A DNA stretch of 47,765 bases from a virus (IMGVR_UViG_3300021600_000010:1-47765); one strand, 5' to 3'. Counted from the first letter of the stretch, positions 817 to 25,235 are shown. Numbers and translations are program-made. The notes: generated from the letters alone by a model not told the origin.

Positions 817-3800
817 ATGCCATCAAATGCTATAAATCCAAATAATTACAATATTGACGATTTCGACAGTGGGTTCTTAGGACCTATAACGGATACTAAT
901 TTTCGTACTTATTTATTCTCACATAATTTATCCAATGTTAACCCAATTGTTAATGCCGATTTAGGTGGTAACGCTTTACAGGATAGAGGTACAGAATACG
1001 ATGTTAGTCAGTCAAACCCAAATATTGTAGATGTACCTGATTTAGGTACTGTCGCGGTTACACCTTCAGTATACAATAATTTTACTGATCCAAGACAGTT
1101 GAATTTGGATATGAACCCAACTTCTAATCAATTAGCAAGTTGGTACCCTGATTATGGGGCTATCTATAATCAATTAAATAATGATTATGCATCACAATAC
1201 GGTGTTCCGCAAACCTTAAGAATTGGTTTTGTTGGTAATGTGGACAGTTGGGTTACAAACGGATATACAGTTACAGCTCACGAAATAAGAGATATTGAAT
1301 TATTAAACCCACTAAATAACAGATACGGGCCAAGTGAAATTATTGCATATTCCACAACAGGTGCTGATGATTTAATTTATAGTAATACAGGTTATATTGA
1401 ATATAGTACTTTTTCACAAGGTGATTTCCGTGACCAATTATTAAGTAGAAGTTTAGGTGTTGGTATTGTACCGTTTAGTACGTTAGGTTCTGGTATTGAT
1501 TTTAAACCTGATGGTAAAAACATATCTGAATTAGATACAATTGCCAGAAAAAGAAGAGGTGAAGAAGTTGCTAATAGAATTAAATTAAATTTTACCAATA
1601 ATACAATCGGTATGTTAAATACAAGTCCTTTTGATTTATTGGCGGGGGGAAACTTAATTCAACAAAATTATAAAATCACTGTACCTAAAACATCCATTGG
1701 TAAAGCTGCAGAATTTGCTGCTGACCTTGCTGGATTTACTTTACCTACAAGTATTATACCTGCTGGTGCCTTTGGTGAGTACGGTGTAGATACTACATCA
1801 ATAGATGTTACAAGTGATATCATAGACTATACAGGTAGTGGACAAAAATCTTTACTATATAATGCACTTTTTATTAACAAATATGGTCCGAAAATAAAAT
1901 CTAATCCTACAACTTCATTGTTAGGGATTATTAAAGAAAAGTTAGGTGCGGGACAACAACCACAAACACAAAATTATTTAAATTATTCTGAAAAAAAAAT
2001 TAGTGGTAATAGATCCACATCTATTATTGACGCAATAAATAACGCGGTTAAAGGTGTATTAACCAAATCAAGTGGTAACTCCCCAAAACCACCAGAAGAA
2101 GATATATCACCAAGTAGTCCTGGAAGTGATAAGTACGGTGGTTTCTACGGAAGGTTTGAACAATATAGTTCTGTAGGTAAGAACACATTAAGTGAAAACG
2201 GTGGTTTTAATGGTGATGTACCTATATATGATGATAAAAATAAAAATTTAACAACCTATAATGGTACACCTACAAAACAAGATATTACCGTTACTGATGA
2301 AAGATTTGATTGGAGAGCCACTACAGACGGTAGTAATCCGTTTAAAAGGGGTTTGTTAAAATATACACAGGATTTAGTTAATAAATCTAAGTTAGGTTCA
2401 GCTGCTGGTTATATAGGGTATTTTGATTCAGTTGGTGGAGACGGGGCTTTAGTTAATGGAGCACATCAGACAGGTGTTAAAACTGCTAACGAAAAACCTA
2501 ATAATCCTTCTAAAGGTAATACTGTTAGAAATTTAAAATTTACAAGTAATAATGGTTCTCTAACAACAAATATGGGTGGTGGTGATAGTTACTGTCGTTC
2601 ATGGTCTTCTCGTAAAAAATATCATACATGGTCAGATTTAATTAGAAGTGGCGGTAATTGGTGGAAAGGTGGTAACAATAACACTGATATGACTATGAAT
2701 AATTTTGGCCAAGATAACGTAGGTATACCTAAAATAGCTTGGGAAAATTCGGATTCAGTTGAATTTAACAATTTAGTTGATTTCACTAATGGAGTTAATT
2801 CAATTAATAAAGGTGTAAATAGTAATTATAAAGGGTTGTTAATACCATATATGTTTTCTATAGAAAATTTAGCTTGGAAAGATGCCCCACAAATGACGCA
2901 ATTACCACCTTGTGAGGTAGGACCTAATGGTGGTAGAATAATGTGGTTTCCGCCTTATGATATTAATTTCACTGATAACACTTCTGTTAGTTGGGATAGC
3001 ACTAACTTCATTGGTAGGGGTGAACCGATATATACTTATAACCATACTGAAAGAAGTGGTTCATTAGATTTTACTATTATTGTTGACCACCCTTCAGTTT
3101 TAAATGACATAAAGAAAACTTTCAAAGATAATGTTCTTAGTGACGAAGCTTATCATTCTTTCTTTGCTGGGTGTGATGCTGACACTTTAAAAGAAATATT
3201 TGCTAATTATATACCTTCTAATTTAGATACGACAAATACAACAAATAATAGTGATAATAACCCTTCAATACCTAAGATACAACCTAAAGATCCTGCAGAA
3301 CCACCATTTAATAATATTAATATATTTTTTGAAAATTGTAGGACCTCTAACGATACTATAGGAAGGGAAGTTGATTTAGATAAATATGAAGTGACCGTAC
3401 CAAGCATTGTTAACGTTAATGAGAATGATTGGAACGGTGATGGTGAATTATACCCTTGTGGCCCTGCAGGTGATAATAGTTACGAATACCTAAACAAAGG
3501 TATTAAAGACCAATTAAATGAATTGGCGACTTTTTTAGTGACAGAAGAAGGTAAAAATTATACAATAAAAATTAATGGTTATACATCACCAGCACAACCA
3601 AATAATAATTTTAATGTTAAGTTATCACAGGATAGGGCTAATAGTACACAGGCATATCTTTATGATTTGATGGATACTGAAGAAGGTGGTGACGCAGCAC
3701 ATTTAGATGGTCTTAATAGTAATCCACAATACCCTTTAGAAAGTGATAGTAATTACACACTAAAAAGGTGGGTTGTAACTGGTATACCTAATGAAAGTGC

Positions 3801-4866
3801 GCCAAACCCATGTACCCCAAGTAGTAATTGTATAAATATTAATGGACAAAATGATTGTTGTGATGGTAACCCTTGTGACATTACATTAGAATGGGGACAA
3901 GCTAATTCAAGTGTTGCTAAATCACATAGGTATTCAGAAATAATTCTTGAAAAGAATTTGGATACACAAATTCTTTTGAGACAACAAATAAAAAACGATA
4001 CAACAAAACAGAATACACAACAAAGTTCTAACAATACACAAAATAAGGCTACATTAGCTGATGTTATTTCTAAAAACTTTATAACAGAATGTGATTATTT
4101 TGAGTCCATAAAAAAGGATAGTCCTTTTATTTATAATTCCTTTAGTGAAAAAATAAAAAATTTTCATCCAGCATTCCATTCTATAACACCTGAAGGATTT
4201 AATTCGAGATTAACTTTCTTACATCAATGTACAAGACAAGGACCTCAAATTATTGATCCAACACAACCCTCAAATATGGTATTTGGAAGGCCACCGATTT
4301 GTGTTTTAAGAATTGGTGATTTTTATCATACAAAAATAGTTATTGATAGTATGAATATAACATACGAACCTTTACAATGGGATTTAAACCCAGAAGGAAT
4401 TGGTGTACAACCTATGTTAGCAAAGATAAATATGTCGTTTAAATTCATTGGAGGTAGTTCATTAGGAGGTCCTATTAAACAATTACAGAACGCTGTATCA
4501 TATAATTTCTTTGCGAATACAGGTGTTTATAACCCAGCAAAGATATTAGAACAAAAAATAGGGGATAGAATGAAATTTATTTATGGATCCTTCTTAAATC
4601 CAAATGATGAAGATACAGCCATGAATGCGTTAAGTGAAAATTTGGCTGAAATACAATTAAAAATAAATGTACAAAACGCATCCTCTGTAAATTCAACTTC
4701 TAAAGGTAAAGAAGCTGCAGCAAGTAGTGGTACTACAACACAAACAGACACTAATATACCTAAAAATGATACAACTGGTGTTTCAGGTAATGATAATGTA
4801 TATTCTGTAACACCAAATAATTCTTCCGTAGTGTCACAAGTTACCAAACCAGTCACTAACCCTTAA
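817..4866 (+). CDS. Large baseplate/tail-tube-associated protein with an embedded OmpA-like domain
   Basis: This 1349-residue virion protein lies between the tape-measure end and the gp53-like gene, where T4-like phages keep baseplate hub and tube-cap genes. Three regions stand out. Residues ~678-758 contain WFPPYDINF, then FIGRGEPIYTYNHTERSG and FTIIVDHP, a pattern I associate with baseplate adaptor proteins. Residues ~866-1045 resemble an OmpA/MotB peptidoglycan-binding domain, with INGYTS and LSQDRANSTQAYL matching the usual GHTD...LSxxRAxxVxxYL. The Asp of GHTD is Ser here, while the following Arg is kept. Residues ~1159-1213 have IDSMNITYEPLQWDLNPEG followed by FKFIGG, another conserved-looking beta domain. 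The tail is Ser/Thr/Asn-rich. The start at 817 follows an A-rich leader and a promoter-like element. Virion function is likely; the exact T4 counterpart (gp48/gp54 or other) is uncertain. Confidence 0.6.
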   Translation: MPSNAINPNNYNIDDFDSGFLGPITDTNFRTYLFSHNLSNVNPIVNADLGGNALQDRGTEYDVSQSNPNIVDVPDLGTVAVTPSVYNNFTDPRQLNLDMNPTSNQLASWYPDYGAIYNQLNNDYASQYGVPQTLRIGFVGNVDSWVTNGYTVTAHEIRDIELLNPLNNRYGPSEIIAYSTTGADDLIYSNTGYIEYSTFSQGDFRDQLLSRSLGVGIVPFSTLGSGIDFKPDGKNISELDTIARKRRGEEVANRIKLNFTNNTIGMLNTSPFDLLAGGNLIQQNYKITVPKTSIGKAAEFAADLAGFTLPTSIIPAGAFGEYGVDTTSIDVTSDIIDYTGSGQKSLLYNALFINKYGPKIKSNPTTSLLGIIKEKLGAGQQPQTQNYLNYSEKKISGNRSTSIIDAINNAVKGVLTKSSGNSPKPPEEDISPSSPGSDKYGGFYGRFEQYSSVGKNTLSENGGFNGDVPIYDDKNKNLTTYNGTPTKQDITVTDERFDWRATTDGSNPFKRGLLKYTQDLVNKSKLGSAAGYIGYFDSVGGDGALVNGAHQTGVKTANEKPNNPSKGNTVRNLKFTSNNGSLTTNMGGGDSYCRSWSSRKKYHTWSDLIRSGGNWWKGGNNNTDMTMNNFGQDNVGIPKIAWENSDSVEFNNLVDFTNGVNSINKGVNSNYKGLLIPYMFSIENLAWKDAPQMTQLPPCEVGPNGGRIMWFPPYDINFTDNTSVSWDSTNFIGRGEPIYTYNHTERSGSLDFTIIVDHPSVLNDIKKTFKDNVLSDEAYHSFFAGCDADTLKEIFANYIPSNLDTTNTTNNSDNNPSIPKIQPKDPAEPPFNNINIFFENCRTSNDTIGREVDLDKYEVTVPSIVNVNENDWNGDGELYPCGPAGDNSYEYLNKGIKDQLNELATFLVTEEGKNYTIKINGYTSPAQPNNNFNVKLSQDRANSTQAYLYDLMDTEEGGDAAHLDGLNSNPQYPLESDSNYTLKRWVVTGIPNESAPNPCTPSSNCININGQNDCCDGNPCDITLEWGQANSSVAKSHRYSEIILEKNLDTQILLRQQIKNDTTKQNTQQSSNNTQNKATLADVISKNFITECDYFESIKKDSPFIYNSFSEKIKNFHPAFHSITPEGFNSRLTFLHQCTRQGPQIIDPTQPSNMVFGRPPICVLRIGDFYHTKIVIDSMNITYEPLQWDLNPEGIGVQPMLAKINMSFKFIGGSSLGGPIKQLQNAVSYNFFANTGVYNPAKILEQKIGDRMKFIYGSFLNPNDEDTAMNALSENLAEIQLKINVQNASSVNSTSKGKEAAASSGTTTQTDTNIPKNDTTGVSGNDNVYSVTPNNSSVVSQVTKPVTNP

Positions 4867-4878
4867 TAAAAAAATACT

Positions 4879-5208
4879 ATGGCAAAACAATATTACGATA
4901 GATATCAAGATTTTAGGTTTAATAATGAGGTTAAAGTTTTACCATTTATTAAATTACCTAACAGAAATACCGATATCATTATAGAGTACAAAAGTAACAG
5001 AACAAGACTTGACATTGTTTCTAACACATACTATGGTACACCTTACTATGGTTGGTTAATAATGCAATCAAACCCTGAATATGGCGGTTTAGAGTTTGAC
5101 ATACCTGACGGAGCGTATGTTAGAGTACCATTTCCATTGGTTAATGCTTTACAAGATTATCAAAAAGCAACAGAAAATTATAACGTTTTATATAATATTA
5201 ACGATTAA
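4879..5208 (+). CDS. gp53-like baseplate wedge protein
   Basis: This 109-residue protein has the pattern of the gp53/LysM-like baseplate family: a short N-terminal strand region, then TRLDIVSNTYYGTPYYGWLI, where a repeated 'D.(I/V)(A/S)..YYGTP.Y.W.I' helix-loop is typical, and then an EFDIPDGAYVRVP segment. In T4, gp53 joins wedges to the central hub. Its position directly before the hub gene supports this role. The stop overlaps the next start as TAATG, so the two genes are probably translationally coupled. The ATG at 4879 follows an A-rich leader (AATAAAAAAATACT) with no Shine-Dalgarno site. The family call rests on motif and position and could equally be phrased as a LysM-like baseplate protein. 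Confidence 0.6.
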   Translation: MAKQYYDRYQDFRFNNEVKVLPFIKLPNRNTDIIIEYKSNRTRLDIVSNTYYGTPYYGWLIMQSNPEYGGLEFDIPDGAYVRVPFPLVNALQDYQKATENYNVLYNIND

Positions 5209-8200
5209 TGTCTTATACAAAGAGTGAATTTACACCTAATCTAATTAGTGGTCCTGGATTAAGTCAACAAAATGATGTTAGGATTTTAGATCCTAATCCG
5301 TTAGGTCAGATTGTCCCACATGAGGATTTATTTATTTATGCTAGTTTAAAAGCTAGACAAAAAAGTAAAACAGTTTTAACTGAAAACAGTTTGGGTAAGA
5401 TAGAATTATCAAACCTAATTCAACAAGATATTAGTTTAACTTCTCCTACATCCACACAGGTAATCGATAGAGAGGTTTTATTTAAAACAAAGCCTGTTCT
5501 AACAACAGATTGGACTGAAATTGGTGGGTGGAAAAGTAGTGCAAATAAAATATACCAAGATTTTGAAGGTTTTGGTATTACAAACATTGATATTGAAATT
5601 AAAAGTCAGGTAGCACCAAAAATTGTTATAGATTTTGTTGATGTTCGTGGGGCTACACTTTTCGAACAAGGTTCTTGTTCTCCTTACGGTTTATTCTTTA
5701 ATTTACCATACCCCATATTTGAACTTACGTTAAAAGGTTATTACGGTAAAGCAGTAAATTATTATTTAAATTTAGTTAAATTCAATTCAAAATTCAACTC
5801 AGAAACAGGGAATATGGAATGTAGGGCTGAATTTATTGGTTATACTTTTGCTTTTCTTTCCGACATGATTGTTAGTTATGTTGAGGCATCACAAAATTTA
5901 AAAGATCAGTACAACCCACAAGGTATTTTACGTCAGAAATATGCTGATACAAAGAAATTTTATGTTAATAACGGTATAAATATAGTAGGTAATGGCGAAC
6001 AACCTTGGTGTGATACACCAAAAAACCCAAACCACTGTACAACTATAATGGACTTAATTGGTGCTTTAAAAACATTCGATGATGTTCAAAAATCAAATAT
6101 TGTTGGTAGCCCCGAATATACTGAATTAAATGATTTAGTACAATTAGAAAAGGATTATAAAGACTATGCAAACCAAGTTTATAATTTAATAAATGAATTA
6201 AATAAAGACAGTAACGTTAAATCTTCAACAAGTTCAAGTATTAATTCAAATACACAACCATGGAAGTTTTGTACTACTACCAATAATGGTACAACACAAG
6301 AAGTAGTTGACGGTGGTACTATATATAAATATTTTAATAAAACAAATAATGGATTATTATTAAATTCAGTAAATACTATTTTAAGTAGAAAAATTGGTAA
6401 AAGTAATGTCTATGATAGTAATATAGGTATAACTTGTTTAGTTGATGATCCAGCTAATTTTACAGATAAAAAAAATCTATATAGTAGTAAGAATTTAAAT
6501 ACAAAACCTTGGATGTTGGGCCTTTTAAAACCATTAGGTTATCCAGCTGTAACAGGTGAAGAAGATTTTATAAATTCAGATCCTGTACTATACCCACCAG
6601 GTTGGTCAGTTTCATCAACACCTGTGAAAGAAGGCCTTGGGTTAATCGATTTAGGATATATTGTGGATGACATTAATAGAGAATTAGATTTATTAAATAA
6701 CCCAGATAACGGTATTATAACTTTAAAAAGAAAAGAAGTTATAGACGGTATAAACGCTATTATATCTGAAAACATAGGGTTCAACCCAACAATTAGAAAT
6801 ATATTCACAGTTCTTTTATGTAATACAGACGCATTTATGGAAATACTTAAAAATGTTGCTGTTGCTGCAGAGAACTATCATAAAACAGAAAATCTAACTA
6901 ATTATGTATCAGCTAATGGTAATGAACAAATAATTTCTGGTAATAATAAATATGTATATCCATGGCCTACCTATTTAGAAAAGGTACATACACCAAAAAC
7001 AACGTCAAATGGTTTAGCTAATAATCAACAAGGTACTAAAGAAGTTTATCCTGGTAATAAATTCCCTAATTGGCCAGAAACAATATTTGTTGAAGATTTT
7101 ATTAAAGCTTTATTGGTATTAAAAAGACAAAATGATATACAAAATAATAAAACCGAAGGCATACCTGGTTACGATAATTACGCACCGATAAACCCACTGG
7201 AGTCCCAATATTGGGAAACAACACCAAGCCCAATTAAGTATACGGATGTTGAAGGTAAAAACGACATTCTAAAAATAATAGGTGAAAGGTTGTTTATTTC
7301 ATTAGACCACTCATTTTTTCAACCAATAAGGTTAACAGAAGATAGTTTATTAATACCTAGAATAGGTGTCGGTAATTGGAACCCAATTAAAAATAACCAA
7401 GTAGGTGGTGGTTTTTTAGACCAATTAGCTAAAGTTGAGGCTTGGAATTTAGCTAATACGTTAGATAATAAAGATAGGTTGAATGGTTTTATAAACTATT
7501 CGGATAGTACCACTTTTATAGATGATGTGTTTAAACAACTAAATCTTAGTAACAATAATAATGGCGGAGTTTTTAAAATAGTAACAGGTAATGATATAAG
7601 AAAAGGTTCAGTAATATCAGGTGGTGATGACATGGGTTTTAACCCTAACGAACAGTATTGTGTTTTTAAATCAGAAACTAATGGTATAATGATTAAGAAG
7701 ATAGACGGAAACCCTTCATATGTTCATCCAAACCCTTTTAAAATGGATGTTAATAATTTGATAAAACTAATCCCGCCTAGTCGTCAATCAGAATTTAATA
7801 ATAAGAAAATACAAATAACCAATAAAACATTTTCTGATAGTATATTAAAAAATTACCAAAATCAATTTGTTTCTTCAACAAATAATATAGATTTTAGTAC
7901 TACAGCATTTAAAGCAGGTGCAACTGGGTTTCCAAAAAGTTTAGTAGGGTTTGACGATAATCAAAAAATATTATCTTTCGATAAACCACAATTATATAGT
8001 ACATTAGCTATAACTGTAGGTAAAAATCTTATTAAGGACATTGATTTTAGTGATTGGTGGTTGAACGGCACACTTACAGATGATAGTTTAGCTGGTAGTT
8101 TAACCTCTAACATGGGGCTGGTAACTTATTGGTCTAAATTTTATGCAGCAAACCCTACTAATAACTATGTTAGTGAAATTAGTTTTTTGACTATAGATGG

Positions 8201-19503: not shown

Positions 19504-21117
19504 ATGGAACTGTCAAGTAAGTTACTTTCAGACATTAGTGTCTACATGAAGTACGCTAAATATATCCCCGAATTAAATAGAAGGGAGACTTGGGAAGAAT
19601 TGGTCACAAGAAATAAAGAGATGCACCAAAAGAAATATCCCCAACTAAAAGAAGAAATAGAAGAAGTTTACAAATTGGTTTACGATAAGAAAGTTCTTCC
19701 TTCAATGAGAAGTTTACAATTTGGTGGTAAACCAATAGAAATTTCTCCAAACAGAATTTATAATTGTGCATATATGCCAATTGACCATCCAGATTCTTTC
19801 TCTGAGGCAATGTTTTTATTGTTAGGAGGTACAGGGGTTGGATATTCTGTTCAAAAACATCACGTAGAAAAACTACCTGAAATAAAAAAACCAAGTTCTA
19901 CAAGAACAAGAAGATATTTAATAGGCGATTCAATCGAAGGTTGGGCGGATTCAATTAAAGTTTTATTGGAATCTTATCTTGGAATGAAGTCATCGACACC
20001 AGTGTTTGATTTTTCGGATATTCGTCCAAAAGGGGCACGTTTAGTAACAAGTGGTGGTAAAGCACCTGGTCCTCAACCTTTGAAGGATTGTTTACATAAC
20101 ATTAAAAAAGTTTTAGATAATAAAGAAGATGGAGAAAAACTTAAACCAATCGAAGTTCACGATATCGTTTGTTACATTGCAGACGCTGTACTTGCTGGAG
20201 GTATTCGTAGAGCAGCTCTCATTAGTTTGTTTTCTGCTGACGACGACGATATGATTTCTTGTAAATCAGGAAATTGGTGGGAATTAAATGCACAAAGAGG
20301 TAGAGCTAATAACTCAGCCGTTCTTATGAGACATAGAGTAACTAAAGATTATTTTATGGAACTATGGAAGCGTATTGAATTAAGTGGTTCAGGTGAACCT
20401 GGTATTTATCTTTCTAACGATAAAGATTGGGGAACTAATCCGTGCTGTGAAATTGCACTTAGACCATACCAATTCTGTAATTTATGTGAAGTAAACGGTT
20501 CAGATATTCAATCACAGGAAGATTTTGAAGCAAGAGTTAAGGCAGCTTCATTTATCGGAACCCTACAAGCTGGTTACACTGATTTCCACTATCTACGTGA
20601 TGTTTGGAAACGTACTACAGAAAAGGAAGCACTTATTGGTGTTGGTATGACAGGTATTGGTTCAGGCGTTGTATTGGGTTACGATATGAAGAAAGCGGCT
20701 AAAGCGGTAAAAGAGGAAAATGAAAGGGTAGCTGGTTTATTAGGTATTAACAAAGCAGCTAGAACTACAACTGTTAAACCTTCAGGTTGTCAAATTCCGT
20801 CAACTGAAATAAAAACTAATTTAGGTGTATTATCTTTAGATGAAATATTTAAAATAAATGGTATCGATTTAGGTGAAAAATTAGATGAAAATAGAACTTG
20901 GTATGATGTTAAAGAAGAGATTAAAGTTTTAAATCAGTTTAATGAGGAAAAATTAATAACAAAATTATTTATTAATGGATTTGAGGAGACTATTGAATTC
21001 ACGATGGAAGATGGTTCTACGATTGAGTGTACACCTAATCATAAATTTATGATGGAAGATGGTTCGTGGAAAGAGGCTAAAGAAATTACCGAAGATGATG
21101 ATTTTTTAATAAAATAA
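19504..21117 (+). CDS. nrdJ: Class II ribonucleotide reductase NrdJ, N-terminal fragment fused to split-intein N half
   Basis: Residues 1-428 are the first part of an adenosylcobalamin-dependent ribonucleoside-triphosphate reductase of the monomeric Lactobacillus leichmannii type. This family makes deoxynucleotides using a B12-generated thiyl radical. C88 and C325 fit the active-site redox pair, C314 and E316 (NPCCEIAL) the radical cysteine and its partner; the spacing 314-325 equals 408-419 in the Lactobacillus enzyme. At TVKPSG the normal sequence stops and an intein begins at C429, continuing for 109 residues to a TAA at 21115. On its own this half lacks the C-terminal part of the barrel and the redox tail, so it should be inactive until spliced to the product of 22187-22870. 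It starts 15 bases after the helicase gene. Confidence 0.92.
   Translation: MELSSKLLSDISVYMKYAKYIPELNRRETWEELVTRNKEMHQKKYPQLKEEIEEVYKLVYDKKVLPSMRSLQFGGKPIEISPNRIYNCAYMPIDHPDSFSEAMFLLLGGTGVGYSVQKHHVEKLPEIKKPSSTRTRRYLIGDSIEGWADSIKVLLESYLGMKSSTPVFDFSDIRPKGARLVTSGGKAPGPQPLKDCLHNIKKVLDNKEDGEKLKPIEVHDIVCYIADAVLAGGIRRAALISLFSADDDDMISCKSGNWWELNAQRGRANNSAVLMRHRVTKDYFMELWKRIELSGSGEPGIYLSNDKDWGTNPCCEIALRPYQFCNLCEVNGSDIQSQEDFEARVKAASFIGTLQAGYTDFHYLRDVWKRTTEKEALIGVGMTGIGSGVVLGYDMKKAAKAVKEENERVAGLLGINKAARTTTVKPSGCQIPSTEIKTNLGVLSLDEIFKINGIDLGEKLDENRTWYDVKEEIKVLNQFNEEKLITKLFINGFEETIEFTMEDGSTIECTPNHKFMMEDGSWKEAKEITEDDDFLIK
20788..21114 (+). other. Split intein, N-terminal fragment (109 aa)
   Basis: It starts with the catalytic cysteine (C429 of the host protein) in CQIPSTEIKTNLGVLSLDEI, the intein block A. 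Block B is GSTIECTPNHKFM, with the TxxH motif TPNH, followed by WKEAKEITEDDDFLI, the usual end of the N-terminal splicing half. It is interrupted by TAA exactly where cis-inteins carry a linker or homing endonuclease. The insertion point, after KPSG and before TSSLVLG, is in a conserved reductase active-site loop that is a known intein site in this enzyme family. Confidence 0.9.
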
Positions 21118-21149
21118 TTTATAATTTTAGTTGGTTTTACTGTTGTTGT

Positions 21150-21166
21150 GATATTTATTATAAAAG
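21150..21166 (+). promoter_or_regulatory. Candidate promoter element ahead of the intein-borne homing endonuclease
   Basis: GATATTTATTATAAAAG, with TATTTAT at 21152-21158, lies 23 bp before ATG 21175. It is followed by AAAAGGAAA, one of the few Shine-Dalgarno-like stretches in the window. This suggests the endonuclease is expressed separately from the reductase halves. Confidence 0.5.
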
Positions 21167-21174
21167 GAAATATT

Positions 21175-22212
21175 ATGGCATCAGTAAAACAAGCTTGGAT
21201 TAAAAAATATGGTGAAGAAGAAGGTTTAAGGCGTTGGGAAGAACGAAAAAAACTTTCAGCCACAACTGAAGAAATTTTAATTAAAAAATATGGTGAGATT
21301 GAAGGGTTAAAACGTTGGGAATCATATAAGAAAAAATTAGAAAAACGTGGTACTAAAAATTGGTTCATTGAAAAATATGGTGAGGTTGAAGGTGTGACGA
21401 AGTGGAAAGAAAAGAATTCTAGATTATCAGTTAGTAAAGAATCATTAATTAAAAATGGTTTTTCTGAAAGTGAGATAGAAACTATAAGGGATAAACATCG
21501 TGAAAAATCAATTAGAAGTTTAGATAACTTTATAAAACAATATGGTGAATCTGATGGTTTAAAATATTATAACGTTTATAGAGAAAAAAATAAATTAACA
21601 TCCTCTTGGGGTTTAGAATATTGGATTCATAGATGTAATGGTAATATTGAAGAAGCAAAAAATAAACTTAATTTTCATCAGAATAGAAACCTTGATTGGT
21701 GGGTAAGTAAGTATGGTGAAATTGATGGTGTTAAGAAACATGGGGAATGGGTTAAAAAGATAACTAAAGTTATTATGAGTGGTGATAGTATATCCAAGGG
21801 TCAGATGTTATTAGAGGATGAAATTAGGGTAGTATATGGCGGTAAAATTCTTGGGTATAAAGACCAATATGGTATTATATTAACTAATGATGAAAAAAGA
21901 ATTTTTAAAATTAAAAACTCAATAATCTACCCAGATATCATATTAAAAGATTTAAAAATAGTTATAAATTACCATGGCGATTTTTGGCATGCATCACCAT
22001 TAATATTTACGGATGAAAATTTAGTTGTCCCTAGAATCAATAAAACGGTAAAACAAATAAGGTTAATTGATTTGGAAAAAGATAAATTATTAACCGAAAG
22101 AGGTTATTTAGTTATAACAATTTGGGAAAATGATTTTAAACGAAAAAAAGAAGAAATAATAGAAACAATTAAAAAAACAATAGAAAATGAGAATAGTAAA
22201 AAAAGAAATTAA
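21175..22212 (+). CDS. Vsr-like (EDxHD) homing endonuclease inside the split intein
   Basis: A 345-residue free-standing homing endonuclease. The N-terminal ~200 residues carry about five copies of a short module around KYGExEGxxRW (IKKYGEEEGLRRWEE, IKKYGEIEGLKRWES, IEKYGEVEGVTKWKE, IKQYGESDGLKYY, VSKYGEIDGVKKH), probably DNA-contacting. The C-terminal ~130 residues look like the very-short-patch-repair (Vsr) nuclease fold: LEDEIRVVYGG, then YPDIILKDLKIVINYHGDFWH, then LTERGYLVITIWENDF. These features characterise the EDxHD homing endonucleases found inside fractured phage genes. The expected Asp after the WH motif is not obvious (WHASP). I chose ATG 21175 over GTG 21148 because a promoter-like element and AAAAGGAAA lie just upstream. 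The 3' end overlaps the C-terminal reductase fragment by 26 bases. Its likely target is the intein-less nrdJ of a related phage. Confidence 0.85.
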   Translation: MASVKQAWIKKYGEEEGLRRWEERKKLSATTEEILIKKYGEIEGLKRWESYKKKLEKRGTKNWFIEKYGEVEGVTKWKEKNSRLSVSKESLIKNGFSESEIETIRDKHREKSIRSLDNFIKQYGESDGLKYYNVYREKNKLTSSWGLEYWIHRCNGNIEEAKNKLNFHQNRNLDWWVSKYGEIDGVKKHGEWVKKITKVIMSGDSISKGQMLLEDEIRVVYGGKILGYKDQYGIILTNDEKRIFKIKNSIIYPDIILKDLKIVINYHGDFWHASPLIFTDENLVVPRINKTVKQIRLIDLEKDKLLTERGYLVITIWENDFKRKKEEIIETIKKTIENENSKKRN

Positions 22213-22288
22213 GAAAAACTTCACTGTAGATATTGAAGTGGCTGAAACACCAGTTTACCAATTGAAAAATGGAATTGTATCGCATAAC
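22187..22288 (+). other. Split intein, C-terminal fragment (34 aa)
   Basis: MRIVKKEIKKN followed by FTVDIEVAETPVYQLKNGIV and SHN is a standard intein block F/G ending, with the penultimate His and the cyclising terminal Asn. The +1 extein residue is Thr, one of the three nucleophiles (Cys/Ser/Thr) that support splicing. The lysine-rich N-terminus contrasts with the acidic end of the N fragment (EITEDDDF), which would help the two halves associate by charge. Confidence 0.9.
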
Positions 22289-22870
22289 ACATCTTCATTA
22301 GTATTAGGAACATCGTCAGGTATTCACGCATGGCATAATGATTACTACATTCGTAGAATTAGAGTTGGTAAAAATGAGGCAATATACACTTACCTTTCTA
22401 TTTACCACCCAGAATTGGTTGAGGATGAATATTTCCGTCCACATGATACAGCAGTAATTTCTATACCACAAAAAGCACCTGAGGGAGCTATAATGAGAAC
22501 GGAATCCGTATTCCAACAATTGGAAAGGGTTAAAAAGGTATCTCAAGAATGGGTAAGATCTGGACATAGAAGTGGAGCTAACACACATAACGTATCAGCA
22601 ACAATTTCAATTAGAGATAATGAATGGGATTTAGTTGGTGAATGGATGTGGGAAAATAAAGAAAGTTATAATGGCTTATCTGTGTTAAATTATTCTGGTC
22701 ACTCATATAAACAATCACCTTTTGAGGATTGTGATGCGGAGACATATGAAAATTTATTAAAAACATTGAAAGACATTGATTTAACTAAAGTAGTTGAGTT
22801 GGATGACAATACAAACTTAAGTGGTGAAGCCGCGTGTGCCGGGGGAGCGTGTTCTGTGGATTCGTTTTAA
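22187..22870 (+). CDS. nrdJ: Split-intein C half fused to class II ribonucleotide reductase NrdJ, C-terminal fragment
   Basis: This 227-residue product has intein residues 1-34 and reductase residues 35-227. After the intein's terminal Asn, TSSLVLGTSSGIHAWH resumes the reductase sequence broken after KPSG. The remainder covers the end of the catalytic barrel and a C-terminal CAGGAC (CX4C) pair 11 residues from the end, the cysteines that re-reduce the active site. Joined to residues 1-428 this gives a 621-residue enzyme, shorter than the Lactobacillus protein (739). An in-frame TAG at 22181-22183 leaves ATG 22187 as the only sensible start, so this half is a separate translation product. It overlaps the endonuclease by 26 bases in another frame. 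Confidence 0.92.
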   Translation: MRIVKKEIKKNFTVDIEVAETPVYQLKNGIVSHNTSSLVLGTSSGIHAWHNDYYIRRIRVGKNEAIYTYLSIYHPELVEDEYFRPHDTAVISIPQKAPEGAIMRTESVFQQLERVKKVSQEWVRSGHRSGANTHNVSATISIRDNEWDLVGEWMWENKESYNGLSVLNYSGHSYKQSPFEDCDAETYENLLKTLKDIDLTKVVELDDNTNLSGEAACAGGACSVDSF

Positions 22871-22919
22871 ACTAGAGAAGAAAACACAGAAAAACCTACA
22901 ATTAACTAAATCATTTCAC

Positions 22920-23123
22920 ATGTACTACATTAAAGGTAATGTACAATGGTTACATAAACACGTTAATATAATGAAAAATAGTTTCCCACAGGAAATGTTT
23001 ATATATCTATGTAATAAGATAACCGAAAATAATAAAATAGATAACCCGATAATAAATGACATAAATAATTTTAAATGGGGTCTAAACACTAAATATGAGG
23101 TAGACATAGTATTACCTAAATAA
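22920..23123 (+). CDS. Small hypothetical protein (67 aa)
   Basis: A 67-residue protein beginning MYYIKGNVQWLHKHVNIMKN, Asn/Ile/Lys-rich, with no recognised family. The frame is open back to 22821, but that would overlap the conserved 3' end of nrdJ and lacks a sensible start, so I take ATG 22920, 50 bases after nrdJ. A possible terminator follows, which would make it the last gene of the replication and nucleotide module. Confidence 0.5.
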   Translation: MYYIKGNVQWLHKHVNIMKNSFPQEMFIYLCNKITENNKIDNPIINDINNFKWGLNTKYEVDIVLPK

Positions 23124-23238: not shown

Positions 23239-23625
23239 ATGGCACAAAAATCCTACATCAATATTCAATTTCCGTTTCAGGATGATCCTGATGGTAAGTT
23301 TTTGGAATTGAACAATGATGCTAAGTTAGCAATCAAATCAGATTTGGTTCATCTACTATTAACCAATAAGGGTGAAAGACTATATTTACCTGATTTTGGT
23401 GCGAATTTAAGAAAGTATATTTTCGAACCAAACGACGAGGCATCGGCAAACGCAATAAAAAATGAAATAAATGAGGCAATAAAAACTTATATACCAAACT
23501 TAAAGGTGACACAATTAACAGTTACACCTTCAGAAGAAAGTATATACGCTGTTGTAGTGAGAATTGATTATATAGTAACAGTTTCCGCATTACAATCAGC
23601 TGATTTTGTTATTTTAACACTATAA
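23239..23625 (+). CDS. 25: gp25-like baseplate wedge protein
   Basis: A 128-residue protein of the gp25 family, conserved in all contractile tails and type VI secretion baseplates. It links the wedge to the sheath. The central LVHLLLTNKGERLYLPDFGA followed by NLRKYIFEP is the family signature (LLT.KGER...P.FG..L...LFE). It is followed in the genome by a gp6-like gene, the usual 25-6 order, although an antisense homing endonuclease now sits between them and overlaps its last 58 bases. The family call is secure; the last residues are encoded in DNA used on both strands. Confidence 0.93.
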   Translation: MAQKSYINIQFPFQDDPDGKFLELNNDAKLAIKSDLVHLLLTNKGERLYLPDFGANLRKYIFEPNDEASANAIKNEINEAIKTYIPNLKVTQLTVTPSEESIYAVVVRIDYIVTVSALQSADFVILTL

Positions 23626-25235
23626 AAAAATTTTTTATTACCACAATCATAAATTTTATCTAAACCTATTTCAGACATTATTTCGGCTTCTGTTTTATTT
23701 TTATCATAACCCATTTTCACTAATTTATGTTTTTGGTATTTAAACCTACTTTCTCTTTTTTTATTTACAATATAAGAGTAATTAACATCTGTGTTTGACA
23801 TAAATTTAAAACCATTTTTAATATAAACATCCCCAACCCCAAATCTTCTATCTGAATACGTAATTAAAGTATTTATACCGGTTTCTTTTATAAAGTGTTT
23901 TAATAACTTAGAAAATGAACCAACTACACTGGTATTAATTACATTACAAAACCTAATCACCTCATGTTCACCGTTTTTTAAAATGCCACGTTTACCAACA
24001 GTTAATAGACTAACAATATTACCTTCATAAAATAAAGCTAAATTATATCTAGCATTTGTATAACCCTGTATGTGATTTTTTAATAAAAAATCCTTACTTA
24101 ATTTTGAATTGATATTTTTTATTTCACATTTTCTGGCATAAATAATATTTTCGGTAACACCCATTTTATGTTTTATCATTGACATCAATAATTCTTTTTT
24201 ATCTAACCATTCATCCTCAAAAATGTGTAATAAACTTATCTTTAGTTTTTCACATTCAATAGTTTTATTTAAATGATAATTTTTATTTTTAAATTTATCT
24301 GAATGCCAATATAAACCATTAAATTCTATTGCTAATTTTTTTTCAGGTACATAAATATCAATCTCTAAATTTTTTAAAACATCTCTAGAATTAAAAATTA
24401 CACTATAACCTAGACCCTCAATAAATTCTTTAATTTCACTTTGTGGTTTAGAATAATTATTACAACATAAATTACAACCACATTCACTATTAAGGTGATA
24501 AAAAGGCGTGGTTTTAATTTCACCATGTTTTACACAATTTATAACACATTCATTCCGTGTGTTTTTATATGTTGTATTTTCGTAAGTAAATTTGTTTTCA
24601 AATAAAGTTTTTGATGCATCAATAAAAGATTGTGTATCAAAAACTCTTAACGAACAATGTGGGCAACCTTGTTTTTTAGATAAATGATTACTCGGAAATA
24701 CTTCAAAATCACCATGAGTTGGACATGTTATGATAACCTTATCTTTACCTATAATATAATCTGTTTTTTTGTAATCATATTTATCACCATGAGTATTTTT
24801 TGATTTAAAAATAAACAATTTGGTATCCATTTTTGATGTACCCCCACAATATTTACAACCCTTACCTTTTAAATGGTTAGACGCAATTTGTTCAAAATTG
24901 CCGTGTATGGGACAAATTAATGTTATTTTTTTACCATAAGTTTTATAATTACACAATGAGTAATCGTATTTATCACCATGAACGTTTTTTGATTCTGTAA
25001 TAAATTCTTCTTGTGTTTTTTTTTGTTTATCCCCCATACTAATTTTTCCACATTTAGGGCAACCTTGTTTAGCTTTAATATGTTTTATTGGTCTTTGTTC
25101 AAAAACGCCATGTATTGGACAAATTATTTTAACTTTTTTATTATTACCACAATATATTGATAACGAATAATCGTATTTATTACTGTGGATGTTTTTTGAA
25201 TCGTTTATGAAATTTTCTTGTGTTTTTTTTATCAT
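23568..25235 (-). CDS. Free-standing Vsr-like homing endonuclease with zinc-ribbon repeats (antisense)
   Basis: A 555-residue protein, the only gene on the minus strand. Roughly residues 1-262 are four copies of a ~65-residue unit with F(I/K)xxSKxxHGxKYDY, then CPxHGxFExxPxxHLxxxxGCPxC, a zinc-ribbon DNA-binding repeat (DUF723-like) common in phage endonucleases. Residues ~265-345 resemble the Vsr/EDxHD nuclease core: SEIKEFI, EIDIYVPEKKLAIEFNGLYW, HSD. The C-terminal ~200 residues (FLLKNHIQGYTNARYNLALF; VIRFCN; SYSDRRFGVGDVYIKNGF) form a domain that usually accompanies this type of nuclease. IYDCGNKK is where such proteins normally end. Here the frame runs on about 20 residues into the antisense of gp25. 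It probably entered as a mobile gene next to conserved baseplate genes. Confidence 0.85.
   Translation of the reverse strand: MIKKTQENFINDSKNIHSNKYDYSLSIYCGNNKKVKIICPIHGVFEQRPIKHIKAKQGCPKCGKISMGDKQKKTQEEFITESKNVHGDKYDYSLCNYKTYGKKITLICPIHGNFEQIASNHLKGKGCKYCGGTSKMDTKLFIFKSKNTHGDKYDYKKTDYIIGKDKVIITCPTHGDFEVFPSNHLSKKQGCPHCSLRVFDTQSFIDASKTLFENKFTYENTTYKNTRNECVINCVKHGEIKTTPFYHLNSECGCNLCCNNYSKPQSEIKEFIEGLGYSVIFNSRDVLKNLEIDIYVPEKKLAIEFNGLYWHSDKFKNKNYHLNKTIECEKLKISLLHIFEDEWLDKKELLMSMIKHKMGVTENIIYARKCEIKNINSKLSKDFLLKNHIQGYTNARYNLALFYEGNIVSLLTVGKRGILKNGEHEVIRFCNVINTSVVGSFSKLLKHFIKETGINTLITYSDRRFGVGDVYIKNGFKFMSNTDVNYSYIVNKKRESRFKYQKHKLVKMGYDKNKTEAEIMSEIGLDKIYDCGNKKFFYSVKITKSADCNAETVTI

Follow-up and report, generated by a model that had tools for sequence, protein, structure and literature searches.

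The window analysed here is a 47,765-nucleotide stretch of viral DNA (IMGVR_UViG_3300021600_000010:1-47765), a 48-kb fragment of a T4-like phage with genes for a baseplate wedge, a UvsX-like protein and a DnaB-like helicase. Its gene for the class II ribonucleotide reductase (RNR), nrdJ, is divided over two open reading frames (ORFs), each carrying one half of an intein, and a nuclease ORF lies in the gap. The locus is very probably a split-intein element in the phosphate-binding loop of the reductase (KPSG/TSS, the slash marking the insertion point), whose two products would be trans-spliced to a NrdJ protein of 621 aa, with an EDxHD/Vsr-like homing nuclease occupying the gap.

The divided reductase and its intein

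The N-extein corresponds to a class II RNR up to KPSG428 and carries the active-site cysteines of the NPC, NCAY and FCNL motifs; it is homologous to the ribonucleoside triphosphate reductase (RTPR) of Lactobacillus leichmannii (PDB 1L1L). The C-extein contains the C-terminal redox pair CAGGAC and is collinear with 1L1L up to the C terminus. Both halves are matched by the RTPR profile TIGR02505, and on PHROG 367 the N half ends at model position 520, exactly where the C half picks up. Assignment to the class II, adenosylcobalamin (AdoCbl)-dependent enzymes is based on the alignment of NPC-C-E, NCAY, FCNL and CAGGAC with C408/N406/E410, C119, C419 and C731/C736 of 1L1L, respectively. The equivalents of the thiyl Cys408 and of Cys119 and Cys419 thus lie in the N half, and the Cys731/736 pair in the C half. 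Removal of the intein (109 + 34 aa) leaves a joined extein of 621 aa with all catalytic cysteines present. Counted on the alignment, the insertion point falls between Gly551 and Thr552 of the L. leichmannii enzyme. The counterpart of this loop in class I enzymes is the PSxTSS loop, which binds the substrate phosphate.

The first-pass annotation of the window had described a class II reductase frame that stops inside an intein, and coordinates, profiles and relatives all agree with this. The KPSG/T site, the +1 Thr and the resumption at TSSLVLG proved exact at residue level, with trees and relatives concurring, and the second ORF does open with a 34-residue C-terminal intein half (IntC) ending in SHN, as had been proposed.

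The N-terminal intein half (IntN) scored 24.8 bits against the intein_Nterm profile TIGR01445 (cut-off 24.5), and a profile comparison with the PDB returned DnaE, NrdJ-1 and further inteins. IntC reached 14.6 bits against intein_Cterm TIGR01443, slightly below the cut-off of 15.6. The set of class 1 splicing residues is complete, comprising Cys1, block B TPNH, the block F Asp, His33-Asn34 and Thr+1; C1, T82 and H85 are invariant across 14 diverse relatives. The intein is split at the canonical endonuclease position, into halves of 109 and 34 aa; canonical split inteins have an IntN of about 100 aa and an IntC of about 35-40 aa (PMC11923092). The HINT fold was modelled on a naturally contiguous relative, L111 (L-numbers are labels of related loci or records compared with the window), with a pLDDT of 95.5. 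The top PDB match of this model was Npu DnaE (E=1.9e-7), and inteins stood at the top of its 59 matches at E<=0.001. Opposite charges of the two halves hold for the window (-14/+2) but not as a family-wide trait: as a family signature they were rejected, failing for L093 and L078.

Both intein halves and the nuclease are under purifying selection, with dN/dS (omega) values of 0.08-0.12 for IntN, 0.05 for IntC and 0.25 for the nuclease; those of the exteins range from 0.04 to 0.19. Coordinates of all features are listed in Table 1.

Table 1. Features of the interrupted nrdJ locus in the window
Feature	Coordinates	Strand	Description	Evidence
ORF 1, NrdJ N-extein + IntN	19504-21117	+	537 aa	
NrdJ N-extein	19504-20787	+	residues 1-428	TIGR02505 E=2.9e-58; PHROG 367 E=2e-92
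IntN	20788-21114	+	109 aa; Cys1 = Cys429 (nt 20788); block B TPNH (T82, H85)	TIGR01445 over cut-off
IntN stop	21115-21117	+	TAA	
Free-standing homing endonuclease ORF	21175-22212	+	345 aa	Vsr/EDxHD-like
C ORF, IntC + C-extein	22187-22870	+	227 aa	
IntC	22187-22288	+	34 aa; MRIVKKEIKKNFTVDIEVAETPVYQLKNGIVSHN; ends SHN	TIGR01443 E=0.029; 85% identical to L085 IntC
NrdJ C-extein	22289-22870	+	193 aa, from Thr+1 TSSLVLG	TIGR02505 E=4.1e-19

The endonuclease, empty sites and mobility

The start of the nuclease ORF was placed at ATG 21175, which follows AAAGGA, in preference to GTG 21148, the start of a longer frame. Its C-terminal domain matches Vsr (TIGR00632, E=2.9e-6, below the curated cut-off), and profile searches of the PDB returned Vsr (1VSR) and I-Bth0305I (3R3P). 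An AlphaFold2 model (pLDDT 84.5) had Vsr 1VSR as its top Foldseek match, with a probability of 0.99 but E=0.06. Residues D254, H272 and D299 are invariant in 13 sequences. Profiles, relatives and fold prediction therefore bear out the Vsr-like endonuclease that had been noted between the halves.

The N-terminal 200 residues are modelled as helical KYGxxEG repeats, for which the PDB contained no convincing relative and which presumably bind DNA. Nucleases that lie within split gp41-like helicases (L087, L088) have an almost identical extreme N terminus (MASVKQAWIKKYGEEEGLRKW), so nucleases of this kind have travelled between split inteins that reside in different genes. In L088 (4170-7059), the host gene encodes a DnaB-like helicase with an atypical split intein at Walker A (IntN of about 60 aa, IntC of about 136 aa), and the nuclease with this N-terminal module sits in its gap. 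In L087 (3627-8680), adjacent helicase and reductase genes both seem to be divided by inteins, and nuclease-like ORFs lie in the gaps.

The nuclease ORF overlaps the start of the C ORF, and hence of IntC, by 26 nt. Family members whose nuclease is intact nearly all have their IntC start within the nuclease ORF or at its end, with an overlap of 0-38 nt and often the sequence ATGA. This arrangement suggests that the nuclease and the IntC-C-extein precursor are translationally coupled. Promoter-like matches around the gap were fewer than in shuffled sequences.

Of the 80 IMG/VR homologues nearest to the window's nrdJ, 79 have an empty insertion site, with a gap of 0 and an exact codon join; their N-exteins are 80-95% identical to that of the window. 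The remaining homologue, L078, carries a 1626-bp insertion with IntN, nuclease and IntC. Searches with the nuclease and IntN recovered the same element in L085/L097-L099 (IntN 78%, nuclease 64% identical), L095 (IntN 85%), L107-L109, L113 and L114/L093. An unannotated public jumbo-phage genome of 462 kb (LR756500, L327) has IntN, an EDxHD nuclease and IntC at 2004-6175, in a more distant reductase.

Intein and reductase have separate histories. The reductases of L113-L117 are only ~33% identical to that of the window (measured on L093/L114), whereas their inteins reach ~55% identity and form the sister of the window's group. Conversely, L078/L120 share an N-extein 80% identical to the window's and an intein from the opposite half of the tree. 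This conflict between the trees indicates that the element is mobile between reductases. A first scan of cellular genomes found no relatives; a second gave 10 weak matches, 9 of them partial and centred on block B, and the only full-length one (L258, 29%) is not at a reductase site. A group I or II intron in place of the intein was ruled out, as Rfam had no match at the locus.

Further nuclease-like sequence lies downstream in the window. A second homing-endonuclease-like ORF of 555 aa, on the minus strand (23568-25235), combines DUF723/zinc-ribbon repeats with an EDxHD/Vsr-like domain, and 58 nt at its end overlap the 3' end of a gp25-like baseplate gene. The ORF is similar to the CapR/DUF723-EDxHD outgroup (PMC12350094). 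A short ORF at 22821-23123 looks by eye like the C terminus of an HNH nuclease that is intact at the equivalent place in L085 (6754-7311) and L086 (1608-2180), and is probably a nuclease remnant between nrdJ and gp25.

Proposed trans-splicing and its alternatives

In the proposed mechanism, two precursors would be made: N-extein-IntN, and IntC-C-extein from the ATG that overlaps the end of the nuclease gene. The two intein halves would associate into a single HINT domain and splice by the class 1 route, with an acyl shift at Cys1, transesterification to Thr+1 and cyclisation of Asn34 aided by His33, to give a scarless 621-residue NrdJ. The EDxHD/Vsr-like nuclease would cut intein-less nrdJ at or near the site, upon which the IntN-nuclease-IntC segment of about 1.5 kb would be copied in.

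Several observations weigh against this scheme. The block F His is replaced by Pro (TPVY) in the window's subclade, and Pro also occupies this position in L095, L097, L101, L102, L106 and L107. The first acidic position of the EDxHD motif is Gln210 in the window and its nearest kin and Glu in the others, with Glu214 nearby. DNA comparison with L003 and other empty alleles revealed no identity step at the junction, as a co-conversion tract would leave. Trans-splicing is deduced here from sequence and models, and the window is a 48-kb fragment, so that a second reductase could lie elsewhere in its genome. Across ten related records of 63-214 kb, which are not certified complete, no second nrdJ was found, each having one; in the 190-kb L085 record the sole nrdJ is the interrupted one. 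The break in the active-site phosphate loop, the purifying selection on the halves and the single nrdJ of related large genomes together strengthen the case that the enzyme would depend on trans-splicing.

Breakage of a phage RNR gene need not abolish its function without splicing. In Aeromonas phage Aeh1, NrdA is split by the free-standing homing endonuclease gene mobE; this reductase in pieces contains no intein and is reported to retain function as two unspliced subunits (Friedrich 2007, cited in PMC10448857; described in PMC3653736). That the window's reductase likewise works as two non-covalent subunits, its intein halves being relics, is nevertheless very unlikely. The halves are intact, their catalytic residues are invariant in very divergent relatives, and omega is 0.05-0.12. 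Moreover, the protein is interrupted in the active-site phosphate loop rather than in a surface turn. The catalytic residues are divided over both halves, and without splicing the active site of the pair would be broken.

Free-standing nucleases are known to fragment phage RNR genes, some persisting as remnants (PMC3653736), and gene decay could be proposed here, with the reductase killed by insertion of the endonuclease and out of use. We regard such a decayed pseudogene as even less credible: none of the five segments has lost its reading frame and all evolve under purifying selection, the catalytic residues are all kept, and the same intact arrangement occurs in many phages. Least probable of all is an assembly or frameshift artefact fusing unrelated sequences. 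Although the record is a metagenomic fragment, its junctions fall exactly at intein splice points, and equivalent architecture recurs in L097/L098/L099, L094/L095, L107/L108/L109 and L120/L121/L122. Such recurrence in independent metagenome assemblies, together with the 79 empty homologues, excludes assembly error in practice as the source of the stop and frame break. Trans-splicing of a mobile split intein thus remains the preferred reading of the locus.

A split-intein family at one reductase loop

Natural split inteins in phage genes have been described before. NrdJ-1 is inserted at NPC/SEI with Ser+1, as against KPSG/T with Thr+1 here. Like the present intein, NrdJ-1 (PDB 8UBS) is naturally split and interrupts a class II reductase, with Cys1, block B and the HINT fold in common, but the two sequences match over a stretch of only some 42 residues surrounding block B (E=7e-5), which places the window's intein outside the NrdJ-1 allele family. 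The phage split inteins gp41-1/gp41-8 and VidaL occupy another host gene and site, and gp41-1 gave a profile match of only E=0.79; the link is the nuclease of L087/L088, which shares the window's N-terminal module and lies in split gp41-like helicases. The window nuclease resembles I-Bth0305I and Vsr in its C-terminal domain, by sequence profile and fold, but differs in the N-terminal KYGxxEG array and in the Gln at the first motif position in its subclade. What Aeh1 NrdA has in common with the window is a free-standing homing endonuclease that interrupts an RNR gene. Among the named phages of INPHARED, no IntN was more than 33% identical to that of the window, and the comparison with NrdJ-1 and gp41-1 that the first-pass annotation had called for upholds its candidate new split intein.

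The closest precedent is the 'fractured genes' of the Global Ocean Sampling (GOS) metagenomes, where split inteins with Vsr-like nucleases were found in seven nrdA and two nrdJ genes (Dassa et al. 2009, NAR 37:2560, via PMC3653736). As far as that description goes, they are alike in having an RNR in two ORFs with an intein half each, a Vsr-like/EDxHD gene between them and a phage origin; the present intein belongs to a new lineage, whose members also lose the nuclease, carry HNH or GIY-YIG nucleases instead, or are contiguous. The kind of arrangement has accordingly been known since 2009, and, judged by its sequence and by the citing description of the GOS cases, the window locus is a new branch of a large, dynamic family.

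Independent assemblies supplied about 50 distinct phage loci with related split inteins at the same active-site loop (KPSG/T); these family counts rest on pattern-based searches with hand removal of near-duplicates. Most of the 80 best IntN relatives lie at the homologous RNR loop (after KPSG, KPAG, KPEG or PTES), and nearly all are split. Of 48 distinct representatives, 14 have an EDxHD nuclease in the gap, nine an HNH nuclease and three a GIY-YIG or GIY-like one (degenerate in L152); 19 have no intact nuclease and three are contiguous. Nuclease remnants persist as an EDxHD C terminus (L132, L147), a GIY N terminus (L145) or C-terminal tails (L133, L157, L161, L167), while in L104, L110, L115, L158 and L159 the halves lie within 30 nt or overlap.

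The type of nuclease differs even within close intein lineages, as in L131 (EDxHD) and L160 (HNH), which group with 100/97 support. GIY-YIG L165 is 51-53% identical to the HNH nucleases L136 (52%), L150 and L137 over a shared C-terminal region of roughly 130 aa; judged from this alignment, L165 and L136 represent a nuclease-domain swap onto one DNA-binding tail.

Contiguous inteins were found in L111 (1468-1887), L125 (6001-6459) and L151 (709-1155), with a fourth in L290. In each of the first three, a Met stands precisely in the column where IntC starts; L290 lacks it. These three are nested in the split family, and parsimony requires three changes. A single origin of these three was rejected by the approximately unbiased (AU) test (p=6e-8), for a group named after the tree had been seen. 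They are probably re-fusions of split inteins, but may instead retain an ancestral contiguous state. Since the gap of some split loci holds a nuclease remnant or nothing, and the three contiguous forms placed on the tree are not one clade, the split state persists after loss of the endonuclease and may on occasion be reversed.

Other arrangements were seen alongside. Related inteins occupy a shifted site in the same loop, two residues on (after KPSGNA), in L282, L288, L292, L296 and L305, and where IntC was seen (the first four of these) it is followed by Ser+1. The single nrdJ of L085 (1310-6690) bears three inteins: besides the split one at KPSG there are two contiguous ones, which follow NRIYN and WGTNP.

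Taken as a whole, we consider it reasonably likely that the family is a phage split-intein lineage fixed at the RNR phosphate loop, whose gap serves as a reusable docking site for EDxHD, HNH and GIY-YIG nucleases in turn, with domain swaps onto a shared DNA-binding tail. The nuclease would have been deleted repeatedly while obligate trans-splicing was kept, and occasional re-fusion would have retained the former IntC start Met.

In the phage, the supply of DNA precursors would depend on an encounter of two precursor proteins. The evolutionary cycle across the family is of more interest than the single locus. Its states are seen together: empty site, split with nuclease, split with remnant, bare split and contiguous. 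The origin, persistence and reversion of split inteins thereby become testable, and for protein engineering, dozens of strongly divergent natural split inteins become available, with Thr+1 and an IntC of 34-37 aa.

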